Assembly (NCBI GenBank): GCA_947454255.1
Contig: CANGIU010000001.1
Span: 1-64,000, forward strand
Source of the DNA: Micrococcales bacterium
GTDB taxonomy: Bacteria > Actinomycetota > Actinomycetes > Actinomycetales > Microbacteriaceae
Direction: 5' to 3'
Length of the DNA stretch: 64,000 nt
Part shown: positions 9,820-19,328 of the stretch, piece by piece
Layout: every line of letters starts with the position of its first letter
Position numbering within the stretch: the stretch's first letter is position 1
Notes under the pieces: generated by a model
What the model saw: only the letters and a program-made list of their open reading frames with translations
Databases searched by the model: none
What the model was told of the DNA's origin: nothing
Translations under genes and position numbers: made by a program

Positions 9820-9892
9820 TCCTCGGTAGCTCAATTGGCAGAGCAATCGGCTGTTAACCGATAGGTTCTTGGTTCGAGTCCAAGCCGGGGAG
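9820..9892 (+). tRNA. tRNA-Asn(GTT); genomic CCA at 9893-9895
   Basis: Acceptor TCCTCGG/CCGGGGA, anticodon loop ctGTTaa, GGTTCGAGTC T-arm. Confidence 0.95.
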
Positions 9893-9921
9893 CCATTTGA
9901 GTCAAACCTTCAGGAGAGCCC

Positions 9922-11178
9922 ATGTTTCTCTGGATTAGAGACCAGAAGTGGCTCCCAACAACCTGCCTCTCATTGATTGCTCTAACGGCTTTTGGGACTA
10001 TGGATTTCATTTTCCAGGGACCAAAAACTCTAGTTGCATCATTAGTTCTTGTATTGTCGGTTACTTTTTCTAGACCTTTGCCTTGGCTTTCAATAGCCCT
10101 AAGTTCAGTTGGAACATTACTGCCCCAATATTTAGGCCTTCAGCCTCAATTCACGATGCTCTTGGCTACTTTGAATCTCTTCATCATTGCTTCATTTGGA
10201 ACGGTTGCTCAAAGAGTTCTCGCATATTCCCTTAACGCGGTGCTTGGAAGTATTGCCGCCGTTTGGTTTGTATTTTCTCTTCCGGTAGATGGAAAGATTT
10301 ATGGAATTTTGATGCCAACAGCAGCATCCAAGATGGCTGTTTTTGCTGCTGGTTTTATTGCGATGATTGCTGTCAACGCGAACGCTTGGTTCCTGGGACG
10401 ATTATTCATTACACGTGTTACTCACGTCGGCACAGATTTTGACCGAGAAATACTTGAGCGTGAGATTGCCATCACCCAGCTCTCACTGGCTGAGCAGGAT
10501 AGAAGATTCGAAATTGCTCGAGACGTGAATGATCTACTGCTGGAACAGGTCAGCTCAACTCTCAGTTCAACTGAGGCTGGCATGTATAGCGCTAAATCAG
10601 ACCCTAGTGTTGCGCCTCGAATACTCGAGAATGTATTCGATGGATTGAAAAAGTCGCACGCGGAAATAAGGCGGCTAAGCGACCTCCTCGGTTTGCAAGA
10701 TGTGAAGGCTCTGGCTTTACCGGGCTTGCGAGATTTGCCTAAGCTCATGATCAGTTATCGAGAACTTGGATATGGGGTCAATTACCGTGTTTCTGGTGAA
10801 GCGCTCAATCTTGATGACGGTGCAGAGCTAGTGCTTTACAGGATTGTCTATGAGTCTCTGGAAAACATTAAGGCTCACACTCCTGTCTCCACTGAAGTAG
10901 ACATTGATTTCATTTGGCAAGGAAACGCAATGCAGGTCGTAGTTAAAGACAATGGCGAGGAAACTAGAAGGCGACAAGATCAGGCGTTGACCGGTTACAC
11001 AGTAGATGAAGACCACCGCGCTTTGGTTGAAAGGCCATCTGGGGCGAACCTGACAGCCTTGCAGGAACGCGCTGGTTTATATGAGGGCGCAGTTGAGTTC
11101 GCGAGAGTACCTGGTGTCGGCTTTACTGTTTCCGCTGCTTTTCCTGATATCGCGAAATATAGAAAAGGCAAAAACTAA
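9922..11178 (+). CDS. Membrane histidine-kinase-like protein (HisKA_3/HATPase_c type) with the acceptor His replaced by Asn
   Basis: Several N-terminal TM helices, then RRFEIARDVNDLLLEQVSSTLS (cf. RxRIARELHDxVxHxLS) and an HATPase-like C-terminus ...RIVYESLENIKAH...VVVKDNGE...ANLTALQERAGLYEG. Confidence 0.75.
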   Translation: MFLWIRDQKWLPTTCLSLIALTAFGTMDFIFQGPKTLVASLVLVLSVTFSRPLPWLSIALSSVGTLLPQYLGLQPQFTMLLATLNLFIIASFGTVAQRVLAYSLNAVLGSIAAVWFVFSLPVDGKIYGILMPTAASKMAVFAAGFIAMIAVNANAWFLGRLFITRVTHVGTDFDREILEREIAITQLSLAEQDRRFEIARDVNDLLLEQVSSTLSSTEAGMYSAKSDPSVAPRILENVFDGLKKSHAEIRRLSDLLGLQDVKALALPGLRDLPKLMISYRELGYGVNYRVSGEALNLDDGAELVLYRIVYESLENIKAHTPVSTEVDIDFIWQGNAMQVVVKDNGEETRRRQDQALTGYTVDEDHRALVERPSGANLTALQERAGLYEGAVEFARVPGVGFTVSAAFPDIAKYRKGKN

Positions 11179-11850
11179 TTGCCAAAGGAAATACGAATTG
11201 CTCTAGTTGGCGGTTCTGACTCTATTAGGACATCTAGACGACAAATATGTGCAACGGTTTCCCACCTAAAAGTCGTCTTCGACTCCGATGGGTTCGGGAT
11301 TAGTCCGAGCCAGTTGCTGGATTTGAATTTCGATGTTGCCGTCATTGATCTCCGATTAGATGTATCAGCGTTGGACCTAATTAAGTCACTGTTTGTGCTC
11401 GCAAAAATTCAAAATCAAACTGTCGGAAGAATCCTAATAGCCAGCCAGTTTAGTGATCTGGCTTTGAGGCTAGAGGCTATTAGAGCAGGCGCAGTTGATG
11501 TCGCTTTTGTCAGCGATGGAATGACTAGTTATATTTCCAAAATCGATAATTGTGCAGATGAATATACGGATTTTGCCATCAGGGAGATTCTGCCAACTCT
11601 CGACAAAACTTCTAGCGATGCTGAATCCTTCCAAAAAGTAAGTGTTGCGCTCGATTCGCTAGACGTTAAGGAAGCTAAACTCTTGAAGGCATTTTGTCAG
11701 TTGAAGTCGGATTCTCAAATCGCTATTGAAGTTCAGATTCCTAAGCAAAAAGTACGTCAGATAATCACCAAGGTGCAAAACATATTGTTATTAGACACTA
11801 GGTCCCAGCTATTGTTGCGGCTTTTTGAAGTTGGCGCGTTAGCCCTCTAG
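11179..11850 (+). CDS. Degenerate response-regulator-like protein (receiver + LuxR-like HTH)
   Basis: Immediately downstream of the kinase-like gene (TTG start abutting its TAA); IRIALVGGSDSIRTSRR...FDVAVIDLRLDVSALDL; C-terminal LDVKEAKLLKAFCQLKSDSQIAIEVQIPKQKVRQIITKVQNIL. Confidence 0.65.
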   Translation: MPKEIRIALVGGSDSIRTSRRQICATVSHLKVVFDSDGFGISPSQLLDLNFDVAVIDLRLDVSALDLIKSLFVLAKIQNQTVGRILIASQFSDLALRLEAIRAGAVDVAFVSDGMTSYISKIDNCADEYTDFAIREILPTLDKTSSDAESFQKVSVALDSLDVKEAKLLKAFCQLKSDSQIAIEVQIPKQKVRQIITKVQNILLLDTRSQLLLRLFEVGALAL

Positions 11851-15186: not shown

Positions 15187-16497
15187 ATGAATCGTCAAAT
15201 CAAGCGGGCTCTCGGGACCGTAGCAGCACTAAGCCTTGGATTTGCGGGCTTTGTTGGAGCAGTAGCTCCTGCACACGCAGATGCAAGCACCACATTCAAG
15301 ATCCACCTAAACGTTCCATCATCAGAAACTGCACAATGGAACATTTGGTACTGGGGCCTAGCAGCTGACCTAAACAGCGACAAGGCAAACAACACTTTCG
15401 GTGACTCAACCGCTGGTGGATTTACCTTCGACAGAACTCCTAACTTCTCTCACGATGATGCTTACGGTTCATACGCAGAATTCACAATTCCTGCATCTGT
15501 TACAGCTTTGAACAACGTTATGCGTACCACAGAGTCGTGGGACGGACAGGCAGCTGTTGACGCAATTCCTGCAGATGGAGACACTCCAGAAGTGCCTGCA
15601 GTGCCTGAAATTGCAGCTTCTGACAAGCCTTTCGGTGGTGACAACATCTTCCCAGCTGGTGAAAGCTGGTGGAACGTTGGAACTCAGAAGCGCGAATACC
15701 CAACTAACTACAAGGTTCACCTAAACATCCCGCTAAAGACCGCTTTGGCTCAGGGCTGGAACCTATACAGCTGGGGAACTTCACGCCCACCACTTCTAAC
15801 TGACTACAGCTACACCGTTACCACTACCAAGAAGGTAAAGGGAAAGACTGTAACCAAGAAGACCAAGGTCTACCCATTCAGAGGCAAGATCCCTACTGAC
15901 CAGAACGACTGGAACGGTAACAATGGTTGGCCATTCGTTGGTGAAGACACTTACGGTGCCTATGCAATCGTTCCTGTATTCCCGGCTTATGCTAGCGGCG
16001 TTGGACTGATCCCTCGTCGTGGTGACGCTACAAGCCCATGGAAGATTCAGTCAGGCGACTTCAAGGCTGATAACAACAACGGTCTTGGAAACATGACTGG
16101 CACAGACATGTACATCGCTCTAGGTAGCAACGAGGCATACAGCAAGGCTCCAGCCTTCGTTGGACGTTACGGTGCGACTGCAAGCTACGCAAATGGAAAA
16201 TTGACTGTAACTCCAGTCAGACCTTCATACGCTGGTCTAAAGGGCGCTTACCCAACAAGCATCGTGGTAACAGCAAAGAAGGGTCCTACAAAGAAGACCT
16301 GTACTATTGCAACCACTGCAACCAAGGCAACATTTGAGGGTGCTTCATGGGGTCTAGCTGAGAGCTGTGACATGGACATCGTCGCAGGCGACACAGCAGC
16401 TACTTGGGAAATCTACGTTCAGGCATCTTCTTCAGGTGTTGGAACTGGCCCAGGTGCAACTGACAAGGCTAACGCTAAAGTAACAATCGGCGGCTAG
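15187..16497 (+). CDS. Secreted protein with two CBM41/PUD-like alpha-glucan-binding segments, no catalytic domain recognised
   Basis: Signal peptide MNRQIKRALGTVAALSLGFAGFVGAVAPAHA; KIHLNVPSSETAQWNIWYWGLA and YKVHLNIPLKTALAQGWNLYSWG resemble the pullulanase segment LIVHYKRNNPTNYSDWGLWLWAF; SD ggagg. Confidence 0.6.
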   Translation: MNRQIKRALGTVAALSLGFAGFVGAVAPAHADASTTFKIHLNVPSSETAQWNIWYWGLAADLNSDKANNTFGDSTAGGFTFDRTPNFSHDDAYGSYAEFTIPASVTALNNVMRTTESWDGQAAVDAIPADGDTPEVPAVPEIAASDKPFGGDNIFPAGESWWNVGTQKREYPTNYKVHLNIPLKTALAQGWNLYSWGTSRPPLLTDYSYTVTTTKKVKGKTVTKKTKVYPFRGKIPTDQNDWNGNNGWPFVGEDTYGAYAIVPVFPAYASGVGLIPRRGDATSPWKIQSGDFKADNNNGLGNMTGTDMYIALGSNEAYSKAPAFVGRYGATASYANGKLTVTPVRPSYAGLKGAYPTSIVVTAKKGPTKKTCTIATTATKATFEGASWGLAESCDMDIVAGDTAATWEIYVQASSSGVGTGPGATDKANAKVTIGG

Positions 16498-16516
16498 TCT
16501 TACCAAAAGATCCAAG

Positions 16517-16555
16517 GAGCTGGGTCCTGTTCATAGGACCCAGCTCTTCTTTTTA
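16517..16555 (+). terminator. Rho-independent terminator
   Basis: Perfect 12-bp stem GAGCTGGGTCCT/AGGACCCAGCTC, 6-nt loop, followed by TTCTTTTT. Confidence 0.93.
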
Positions 16556-16559
16556 ACGC

Positions 16560-16578
16560 TGTAATGGAAACGATTACA
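16560..16578. promoter_or_regulatory. Putative LacI/MalR-type operator
   Basis: TGTAAT-GGAAACG-ATTACA inverted repeat directly upstream of the pullulanase gene. Confidence 0.5.
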
Positions 16579-16652
16579 TAACGAAGCATGTTTCGCTTCT
16601 CTAATCCAAAATCCGCGGAAATAGTATTGCCTTAGGCCAATAAAGGAAAATA

Positions 16653-19328
16653 GTGAAAATCAAGCAATTCAAGGGTTTCAAAAGAGCACTTCTAGCACTA
16701 GTACTAACTGCCGGCATAACATTGCCTGGAGCTGTGATTTCTGGCCCTGCGCAAGCCGCAAATGGCTGCGCCACTGCACAGTGTGCCCATCTAATCGTTC
16801 ATTACAAACGCAATAACCCGACCAACTACAGTGACTGGGGCCTTTGGCTCTGGGCTTTCAAAGGCGTGAACCTTCCTGAAACCAAGGTTCCAATCGGATT
16901 TAGCGCATCAAGACTTGATTCCAATGGCTTCGCCACCATCGACATTTTAGTTCCAATTAGCGCTGGCGTTACACAGCTGGGCATGATCCCTCGAAAGATA
17001 AGCAGCTGGGACAAAGACGTTGACATGGATCGAGTAGTCGATCTCGACTCGAATAAGTTCGCTGAGATTTGGATCAAACAGGGCGACGGCTACCTATACA
17101 AGAACGACACGTTCGTTATCCCACCAGAAATCTGGGGAGCCTCAATTGAGTCTTTTAGGACGATCAAGATCACTCTAAGCAAGGCTAACGCCACAGCAGG
17201 TCCAGGATTCTCAATCAGTGGCGATGGAGCGCCAGCAATTGCCTCATACGAAAAGATTAAAGATCTTTACGGTGCAACTGTTGCGAGCAACAAGCAGTGG
17301 TTGATTACTACTGCGAGCGATATTCCTCTCGGTTCTATTCTTACTATCAATCACACTGATGCTGATCCTGCGAGAGTTTTTGGTTCAAGGCAAATTGTTC
17401 CTGCTGGAGTATTCACTAGCCAAGGATTCATAGACGCATTCACATACACGGGCAATGATCTGGGTGCAACATACTCTGTCGCGAAAACTGACTTTAGAGT
17501 CTGGGCTCCGACTGCAAGTGAAGTTGAAATCGCAACGTACTCGTCGGCGACAGTTGGGGCTGATCAGGCTGTTGTCACTTCGATGACAAAGAGCGTTAAT
17601 GGAACTTGGATTGCATCTCTAACTGGTGACAAGAACGGCTTGATTTACAACTACCGCGTAACAGTTGGCGGTAACACTGAAGAGGCAGTTGACCCTTACG
17701 CCAGGTCTGTCACCATGAATGGTAACCGCGGTGTTGTTTTGGATCTTTCTAAGACAAACCCTGCTGGTTGGGCAACTCAAGCTAAACCTGCATTCTCTGG
17801 AAAAGCAACTGATGCAGTGATGTATGAGTTGCATGTGCGTGATGCTTCAAGCGATCCTTCTAGCGGAGTCTCTGCTGCGAAGCGTGGGAAATACCTTGGT
17901 CTTGCTCAACTTGGTACCTCAGTTAAATCTGGCAGCAAGACGGGCACAACTGGGCTGAGTTATTTCAAAGAACTCGGCGTTACCCACATTCAACTTCTGC
18001 CTTTCTACGATTACGCCTCAGGTGGTTCAGAAGATTCTTCTTCGTTCAACTGGGGTTATGACCCAAAAAACTACAACGCACCTGAAGGTCAATATTCAAG
18101 TGATCCTACAAACCCAGTTGCGAGAGTTAAGGAACTAAAGACTGCTATTCAGGCAATCCATAAAGCTGGCTTGCGTGTAACCATGGATGTCGTTTACGGA
18201 CACGTTGCTAGCGCTACAGAATTCAGTGAACAGCTAATCGTTCCGGGTTACTGGTTCAGAAGAGATGCCAGCGGTGTTTTGACTAATGGTTCAGGATGTG
18301 GAAATGACGTTGCAACTGAGCGGCCAATGGTCCGTAAGTTCATTGTTGACTCTATGAAGTACTGGACTAGCGAATACAAGCTAGATGGATTCAGAATCGA
18401 CCAAATGGGTCTTTGGGATGTCACAACTTTGAATGCAGTTCGTGCCGGAGTTTCTTCAGTTGAGCCAAAAGCAACGATTCTTGGAGAAGCTTGGAGTATG
18501 GGTCCATCAATTGGTGTGCCTCAGGGTACTCAGGGCCAGCTAGTAAACATGCCTGGACTTGGTGCATTCAATGATGGTATTCGTAATGCTGTTAAGGGAA
18601 GCCCAGACGGCATGGATGGTGGATATGTCAACGGCAATCCGAGCGGAGCACTAGGAGCGCTAAAGGCTGGAACTATCGGCCACACTAGCGCTGACAACCT
18701 TGTAGTGCCTTGGTTGACTCTAGATGCTGGACAGTCAGTTAACTACGCAGAAGCACACGACAACTCAACTCTGTTTGACAAATTGTGGTCGGTCAATGGT
18801 GGAACTTCTCGTTCTGCTGTCGCTAAACAAGATCGTCAGGTTGCTGCGCTGATCCTTTTGGCACAAGGAACACCGTTTATTCAAGCTGGACAGGAATTCC
18901 TTCGTACTAAAGAGGGTGAGACCAACAGTTACAACCTTCCAGATTCAATCAACAGTTTGAAGTGGGGTCAGCGACTCTCGGAGAAGACAACAGTTGATTA
19001 CTACAAAGGTTTGATTGCACTTAGAAAAGCTCACCCTGCCTTCCGAATGAATAAGCCAACTGCTATCTCTGCCAACTTGAATTTCCTCAGCGCTCCGGCT
19101 GACATTTTGGCCTACGAGCTAGATGGCAAAGCTGCTAAAGATTCTTGGTCAAGCATCGTCGTAATCGCTAACCCGAACGATGTTGCTAAAAAAGTTTCAT
19201 TACCAGAATCAGGTAACTGGAAGATTGTTGTTCAAGGGGATAAGGCTGGAACCACAGCTTTGGCAACTTTGAAAGGCGCTGGATCAATTTCAGTGGCCGC
19301 TCATTCAACACTCGTGGTCTATAAGTAA
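16653..19328 (+). CDS. pulA: Secreted type I pullulanase (CBM41 + CBM48 + GH13)
   Basis: Signal peptide; FNWGYDPKNY; GFRIDQMG nucleophile; GEAW acid/base; EAHDN; N-terminal PUD. Confidence 0.9.
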   Translation: MKIKQFKGFKRALLALVLTAGITLPGAVISGPAQAANGCATAQCAHLIVHYKRNNPTNYSDWGLWLWAFKGVNLPETKVPIGFSASRLDSNGFATIDILVPISAGVTQLGMIPRKISSWDKDVDMDRVVDLDSNKFAEIWIKQGDGYLYKNDTFVIPPEIWGASIESFRTIKITLSKANATAGPGFSISGDGAPAIASYEKIKDLYGATVASNKQWLITTASDIPLGSILTINHTDADPARVFGSRQIVPAGVFTSQGFIDAFTYTGNDLGATYSVAKTDFRVWAPTASEVEIATYSSATVGADQAVVTSMTKSVNGTWIASLTGDKNGLIYNYRVTVGGNTEEAVDPYARSVTMNGNRGVVLDLSKTNPAGWATQAKPAFSGKATDAVMYELHVRDASSDPSSGVSAAKRGKYLGLAQLGTSVKSGSKTGTTGLSYFKELGVTHIQLLPFYDYASGGSEDSSSFNWGYDPKNYNAPEGQYSSDPTNPVARVKELKTAIQAIHKAGLRVTMDVVYGHVASATEFSEQLIVPGYWFRRDASGVLTNGSGCGNDVATERPMVRKFIVDSMKYWTSEYKLDGFRIDQMGLWDVTTLNAVRAGVSSVEPKATILGEAWSMGPSIGVPQGTQGQLVNMPGLGAFNDGIRNAVKGSPDGMDGGYVNGNPSGALGALKAGTIGHTSADNLVVPWLTLDAGQSVNYAEAHDNSTLFDKLWSVNGGTSRSAVAKQDRQVAALILLAQGTPFIQAGQEFLRTKEGETNSYNLPDSINSLKWGQRLSEKTTVDYYKGLIALRKAHPAFRMNKPTAISANLNFLSAPADILAYELDGKAAKDSWSSIVVIANPNDVAKKVSLPESGNWKIVVQGDKAGTTALATLKGAGSISVAAHSTLVVYK

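Follow-up and report, generated by a model that had tools for sequence, protein, structure and literature searches.

A kinase-like protein without its acceptor histidine and a regulator with a degenerate receiver pocket, retained together throughout one genus of very small freshwater bacteria: a candidate pseudo two-component system

The analysed stretch of DNA, here called the window, comprises 64,000 nucleotides from a member of the Microbacteriaceae. It holds a gene for a DesK/HisKA_3-like pseudo-histidine kinase, followed by one for a NarL-type regulator with a receiver-like domain (Table 1). The original prediction had the two genes directly coupled and full length, and this is borne out: both frames are open, and the TTG start of the regulator abuts the TAA stop of the kinase. 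At its other end the regulator ORF overlaps a convergent peptide deformylase gene by 12 bases (11839-11850). The tRNA-Asn gene upstream is a constant neighbor, lying 18-59 nt 5' of the kinase start in 50/50 loci of the genus with enough upstream sequence; no promoter-like site was found between it and the kinase in the window (9820-9922), and the kinase may be expressed from the tRNA-Asn transcript. In the family, the genes run in the order dusB, dgt, dnaG, (a dehydrogenase), tRNA-Asn, kinase, further genes, def, an EamA-like gene and a glycosyltransferase; many other genera keep this order, though some genes are lost and others inserted. Beside the glycosyltransferase in the window (15187-19328) are two adjacent genes, one starch-binding-like and one pullulanase-like, which by eye look secreted and carbohydrate-active.

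Table 1. Positions of the genes, domains and key residues in the window
Feature	Position	Strand	Basis
tRNA-Asn(GTT), 26 nt before kinase start	9820..9895	+	also in genus loci
Pseudo-histidine kinase, DesK/HisKA_3-like, 418 aa, ATG start	9922..11178	+	ORF, profile and fold matches
N-terminal membrane region, residues 1-167	9922..10422	+	structure model, domain search
DHp-like two-helix region, residues 172-256	10435..10689	+	HMMER, genus profile, model
Asn203, codon AAT, acceptor-His site	10528..10530	+	sequence alignment
DLLLE (204-208), site of HisKA_3 phosphatase motif DxxxQ	10531..10545	+	alignment
HATPase/CA-like domain, residues 265-410	10714..11151	+	HMMER, model, fold match
N-box ESLENIKAH (311-319), Glu311 and Asn315 kept	10852..10878	+	alignment
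G1 box DNGEE (343-347), Asp and first Gly kept, Glu347 in place of second Gly	10948..10962	+	alignment
Pseudo-receiver NarL-type regulator, 223 aa, TTG start	11179..11850	+	ORF, model, profile and fold matches
Gly11-Gly12 at acidic-pair site	11209..11214	+	alignment
Asp57, acceptor-site Asp kept (Glu in several close relatives)	11347..11349	+	alignment
Val111 at conserved Lys site	11509..11511	+	alignment
C-terminal LuxR/GerE-like helix-turn-helix (HTH), residues 148-217	11620..11829	+	model, profile and fold matches

The acceptor His is indeed absent from the kinase-like protein, as was claimed from the sequence: Asn203 takes its place in IARDVNDLLLEQ, where HisKA_3 domains carry His. In HMMER alignments residues 196-256 fall onto positions 3-63 of PF07730 and residues 302-408 onto HATPase_c, both matches being below the curated cut-offs. 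The profile of the genus kinases puts the acceptor-site segment against the DesK H-box RIARDLHDTLGQKLS and recovers DesK itself, and 42-44 of 46 genus kinases give Pfam matches to DHp plus HATPase_c domains; a DUF7134-like N-terminal membrane region is found in 12 of the 46. A conserved His elsewhere in the DHp region would have spoken for an alternative acceptor, and none was found across both helices; close relatives have Tyr or Phe in place of the His of the SHAEIRR segment. The AlphaFold model (mean pLDDT 81.8, pTM 0.47) consists of membrane helices (10-32, 36-48, 54-70, 77-92, 95-119 and 134-167), a long DHp hairpin and a CA domain. Foldseek matches it to DesK structures, among them those of mutants without the His in complex with AMP-PCP or ADP (3ehj, 3ehh, 3gif); in these structures the H188V and H188E proteins hold the nucleotide. 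The idea that the window kinase is a canonical multi-helix paralogue was discarded on profile scores, which are 224-238 bits for syntenic orthologues vs at most 158 bits for non-syntenic proteins.

The N-, G1- and G2-like segments of the ATP site had also been described as divergent, which is true only in part. The second Gly of G1 is replaced; the N-box Asn315 and Asp343-Asn344-Gly345 of G1, however, show little or no variation within the genus, with the N-box Asn retained in 53/54 kinases and the G1 Asp in 54/54, and the second Gly of G2 is missing only among some close relatives of the window kinase. Judged from the alignments, the site is only partly divergent, and less degraded than first held. 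Moreover, almost no orthologue in the family, with or without the acceptor His, has the second G1 Gly; the altered ATP lid would thus predate the loss of His or be independent of it, and by this comparison it is a family trait, not a peculiarity of the window gene.

The losses claimed for the regulator are likewise found. Gly-Gly replaces the acidic pair, Val111 replaces the Lys, and Ala88 stands in place of the pocket Thr, so that the canonical set DD, Asp, Thr/Ser, Lys reads G, G, D, A, V; only Asp57 remains. The match to Response_reg is marginal in HMMER. The AlphaFold model (mean pLDDT 92.7) nonetheless has a REC fold with a NarL-type HTH, and its best Foldseek matches are VraR, LiaR and NarL; the genus regulator profile recovers DevR, NarL, VraR, ChrA and DesR across most of its length.

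The host genus is made up of tiny freshwater bacteria; the window genome measures 1.24 Mb, and those of its congeners about 1.2-1.6 Mb. The kinase is found in 55 of 59 genus genomes, including all 20 that are nearly complete. Among the 54 kinases that could be aligned, the acceptor site is Asn in 26, Ser in 16, Thr in 11 and Ala in one, and never His. Across HisKA_3 domains at large, 0.3% lack the His (PMC12632262); its absence from 54/54 is beyond chance. The residue that follows is acidic in 53/54, and the fifth position of the motif is Gln in 40, Glu in 13 and Asp in one; most congeners thus have (D/E)xxxQ at the DLLLE site, and the window clade xxxE. The regulator is the next gene in every one of the 50 loci with enough contig to be scored, and in 49 of these its start codon lies -8 to +8 nt from the end of the kinase stop codon. 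None of the 50 regulators has the second acid or the Lys; the first acid is present in 29, and the acceptor site is Asp in 37 and Glu in 9. An AzlC gene follows in 27 of 45 loci with enough sequence. Most genus regulators keep the HTH. In two congeners (L094 and L095) the His-less kinase is followed by only a short receiver that lacks it, and in three the HTH is reworked; an output through DNA is therefore not shared by all. The window clade has Gly-Gly in the acid-pair positions, Glu (once Asp) for the Gln of the kinase motif and no AzlC, none above cut-off being found in the window genome; by these characters this clade is the furthest-gone of the genus. The three changes fall on roughly one branch of the tree and are best counted as a single episode.

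Elsewhere in the family, the orthologue at the corresponding place is mostly ~310 aa long, its membrane part being much shorter. Next comes AzlC/AzlD, a single receiver or, with nothing in between, def; AzlC follows the orthologue in many genera, at times overlapping it. The acceptor site is His in 34 of the 53 orthologues scored outside the genus (Gln 14, Gly 2, Leu 2, Asp 1), a set that includes the outgroup L131, which has none of the neighboring genes of the locus. In the sampled loci all nine adjacent receivers (that of L131 among them) retain both acceptor Asp and Lys and adjoin a His-bearing kinase, suggesting that the pocket losses are derived; no His-less kinase with an adjacent regulator was found there. 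Within this sample, then, a His-less kinase and its regulator appear together only in the window genus. That genus forms one clade in the phylogeny, parsimony gives five His-state changes across the family, and the His was evidently lost several times. An apparent tie between loss of His and loss of the N-box Glu in other genera (raw Fisher p ~9e-9) was not significant once relatedness was considered, the tree leaving 3-5 independent pairs. In seven other-genus loci (L116-L120, L122 and L130), the degenerate orthologue is closely preceded by a second DesK-like kinase whose H-box is intact, and the regulator beside this second kinase looks intact where its output was read.

Both genes have a dN/dS of 0.02-0.07 (pairs with measurable dS), which points to strong purifying selection on kinase and regulator alike. 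Decay in sister strains would have undermined the original prediction, and it is contradicted by these values, the open frames and the retention throughout the genus. The pairwise distances of the two proteins correlate at 0.83; given the upstream dehydrogenase, the partial r is 0.73, a value reached by 0/2000 permutations, while the partial correlation of regulator and dehydrogenase given the kinase is -0.03. This covariation supports a functional coupling of the two proteins, falling short of a proof of contact, and can also stem from relatedness and saturation.

With the acceptor His absent, established chemistry should exclude His-Asp phosphotransfer from the window kinase, and the retention of the pair throughout a genus in which neither His nor a complete pocket survives points to signaling without phosphate transfer. 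The best reading of the lost residues, the kept fold and nucleotide-site residues, the synteny and adjacency, the selection and the covariation is a phosphorylation-independent pair, as first suggested; that suggestion is weakened in one respect, as Asp57 and the (D/E)xxxQ of the relatives leave room for a phosphatase or a weak, phosphorylation-linked role. We consider it about an even chance that this is a conserved pseudo two-component system, in which a nucleotide-binding pseudokinase scaffold steers its own pseudo-receiver. The membrane-bound, DesK-like pseudokinase would sense through its helices and DHp dimer and probably bind ATP or ADP in a largely retained pocket, as the kept N-box and G1 core suggest. 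Its shape, dependent on signal and nucleotide, would then set the binding or release of the NarL-type pseudo-receiver, which may then act on DNA; we favor a scaffold whose regulator binding depends on nucleotide and on the state of the membrane. The bolder form, a stable phosphotransfer-free pair in which a nucleotide-binding membrane pseudokinase directly gates a co-evolving pseudo-receiver transcription factor genus-wide, we hold more tentatively, at somewhat under even. The locus of the wider relatives is tied to the AzlCD amino-acid exporter, from which we would guess at amino-acid or membrane stress as the ancestral signal. Speaking against a fully phosphate-free design, the Asp at position 57 in 37/50 regulators and the first acid in 29/50 exceed what it would need.

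Since most congeners retain (D/E)xxxQ, the main rival is a phosphatase-only role, albeit an unlikely one: the DHp region would strip phosphate from its own weakly phosphorylated Asp57, or from another regulator, and phosphorylate none. The motif outlasts the His, NarX phosphatase activity requires DxxxQ (PMC3510030), and this activity does not need the His (PMC12632262); the prevalence of Asp57 fits as well. The window clade, however, has Glu for the Gln and has lost both regulator acids, making a metal-dependent phospho-Asp unlikely there, and PMC12632262 argues that phosphatase function does not generally explain why HisKA_3 proteins lose the His.

Somewhat less likely still, the proteins may be accessory partners that modulate another two-component system, the pseudokinase by heterodimerizing with an active kinase or the pseudo-receiver with an active regulator. 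There are precedents, namely heterodimers of the ChrS pseudokinase with HrrS in Corynebacterium (PMC9491836) and of BldM with WhiI (PMC4125116, discussed in PMC12632262), and several other genera have an intact kinase-regulator pair directly upstream of the orthologue. No such pair is present at the window locus, though, and the window genome offers few HisKA_3-like candidates (the C4 pair and a 256-aa kinase at C14:514), its remaining kinase-linked regulators looking OmpR-like by sequence. The C14 kinase (in the stretch L166 19-1757) has intact-looking LVHDSV and DDGMGF motifs; its gene overlaps that of a membrane protein of ~326 aa whose tail may be a degenerate ATPase-like one. Weak HisKA_3 matches also occur at C6 and C13; the former was rejected as a kinase, sitting inside a release-factor-like gene.

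A non-transcriptional coupling to transport, with the kinase-like protein and receiver controlling the AzlCD exporter or the membrane by binding, seems improbable to us. It would explain why AzlC so often follows the orthologue or the regulator and why some adjacent receivers have no output domain, but the pair persists in the window clade, where AzlCD is absent, and most genus regulators keep their HTH. That the pair is under relaxed constraint, or decaying as the genome is streamlined, is very improbable: the many degenerate sites and repeated His losses are outweighed by uninterrupted frames, a steady start spacing, dN/dS below 0.1 and the persistence of the pair throughout a genus whose genomes measure about 1.2-1.6 Mb.

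Pseudokinases and pseudo-receivers are each already known. We know of no adjacent, genus-conserved pair with both halves degenerate, and found no report of one in the part of the literature that was searched. Because His-bearing orthologues and intact receivers survive in related genera, the loss can be placed on the tree and its intermediates are open to study. Rhodoluna lacicola, which is amenable to genetic editing (PMC11577799), is very probably a congener and makes the function of the pair directly testable.

Among characterized systems, DesK/DesR is the closest: DesK is the best PDB match of the window kinase by both sequence and fold, membrane helices, DHp and CA come in matching order, and the regulator has the DesR/NarL layout; unlike DesK/DesR, the window pair lacks the acceptor His, the second G1 Gly, the acidic pair and the Lys. 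DivL and ChrS-CA-fs (PMC4211667, PMC5361649, PMC9491836) also reuse a kinase fold without the canonical autophosphorylation or transfer role; by their abstracts, though, they work in networks with active kinases or canonical regulators, and a degenerate partner regulator is not mentioned. A degenerate pocket is shared with aspartate-less receivers such as RitR (PMC4395418), and 9/50 congeners have Glu at the Asp site. Asp is missing in 2.0% of receivers (PMC12632262); the window regulator has Asp57 and so lies outside this class, and the Lys is lost in 50/50 genus regulators (one has His), whereas 70% of aspartate-less receivers keep a basic residue. With the pseudo-receivers and atypical response regulators reviewed in 2025 (PMC12632262), whose switching is there termed a mystery, the window regulator shares the loss of DD, T and K and the retention of fold and HTH. 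Of 20 characterized pseudo-receivers, 18 are orphans (PMC12632262); while most of those studied thus lack a known partner, the one described here adjoins, and covaries with, its own pseudokinase, and the adjacent gene is its likely partner.
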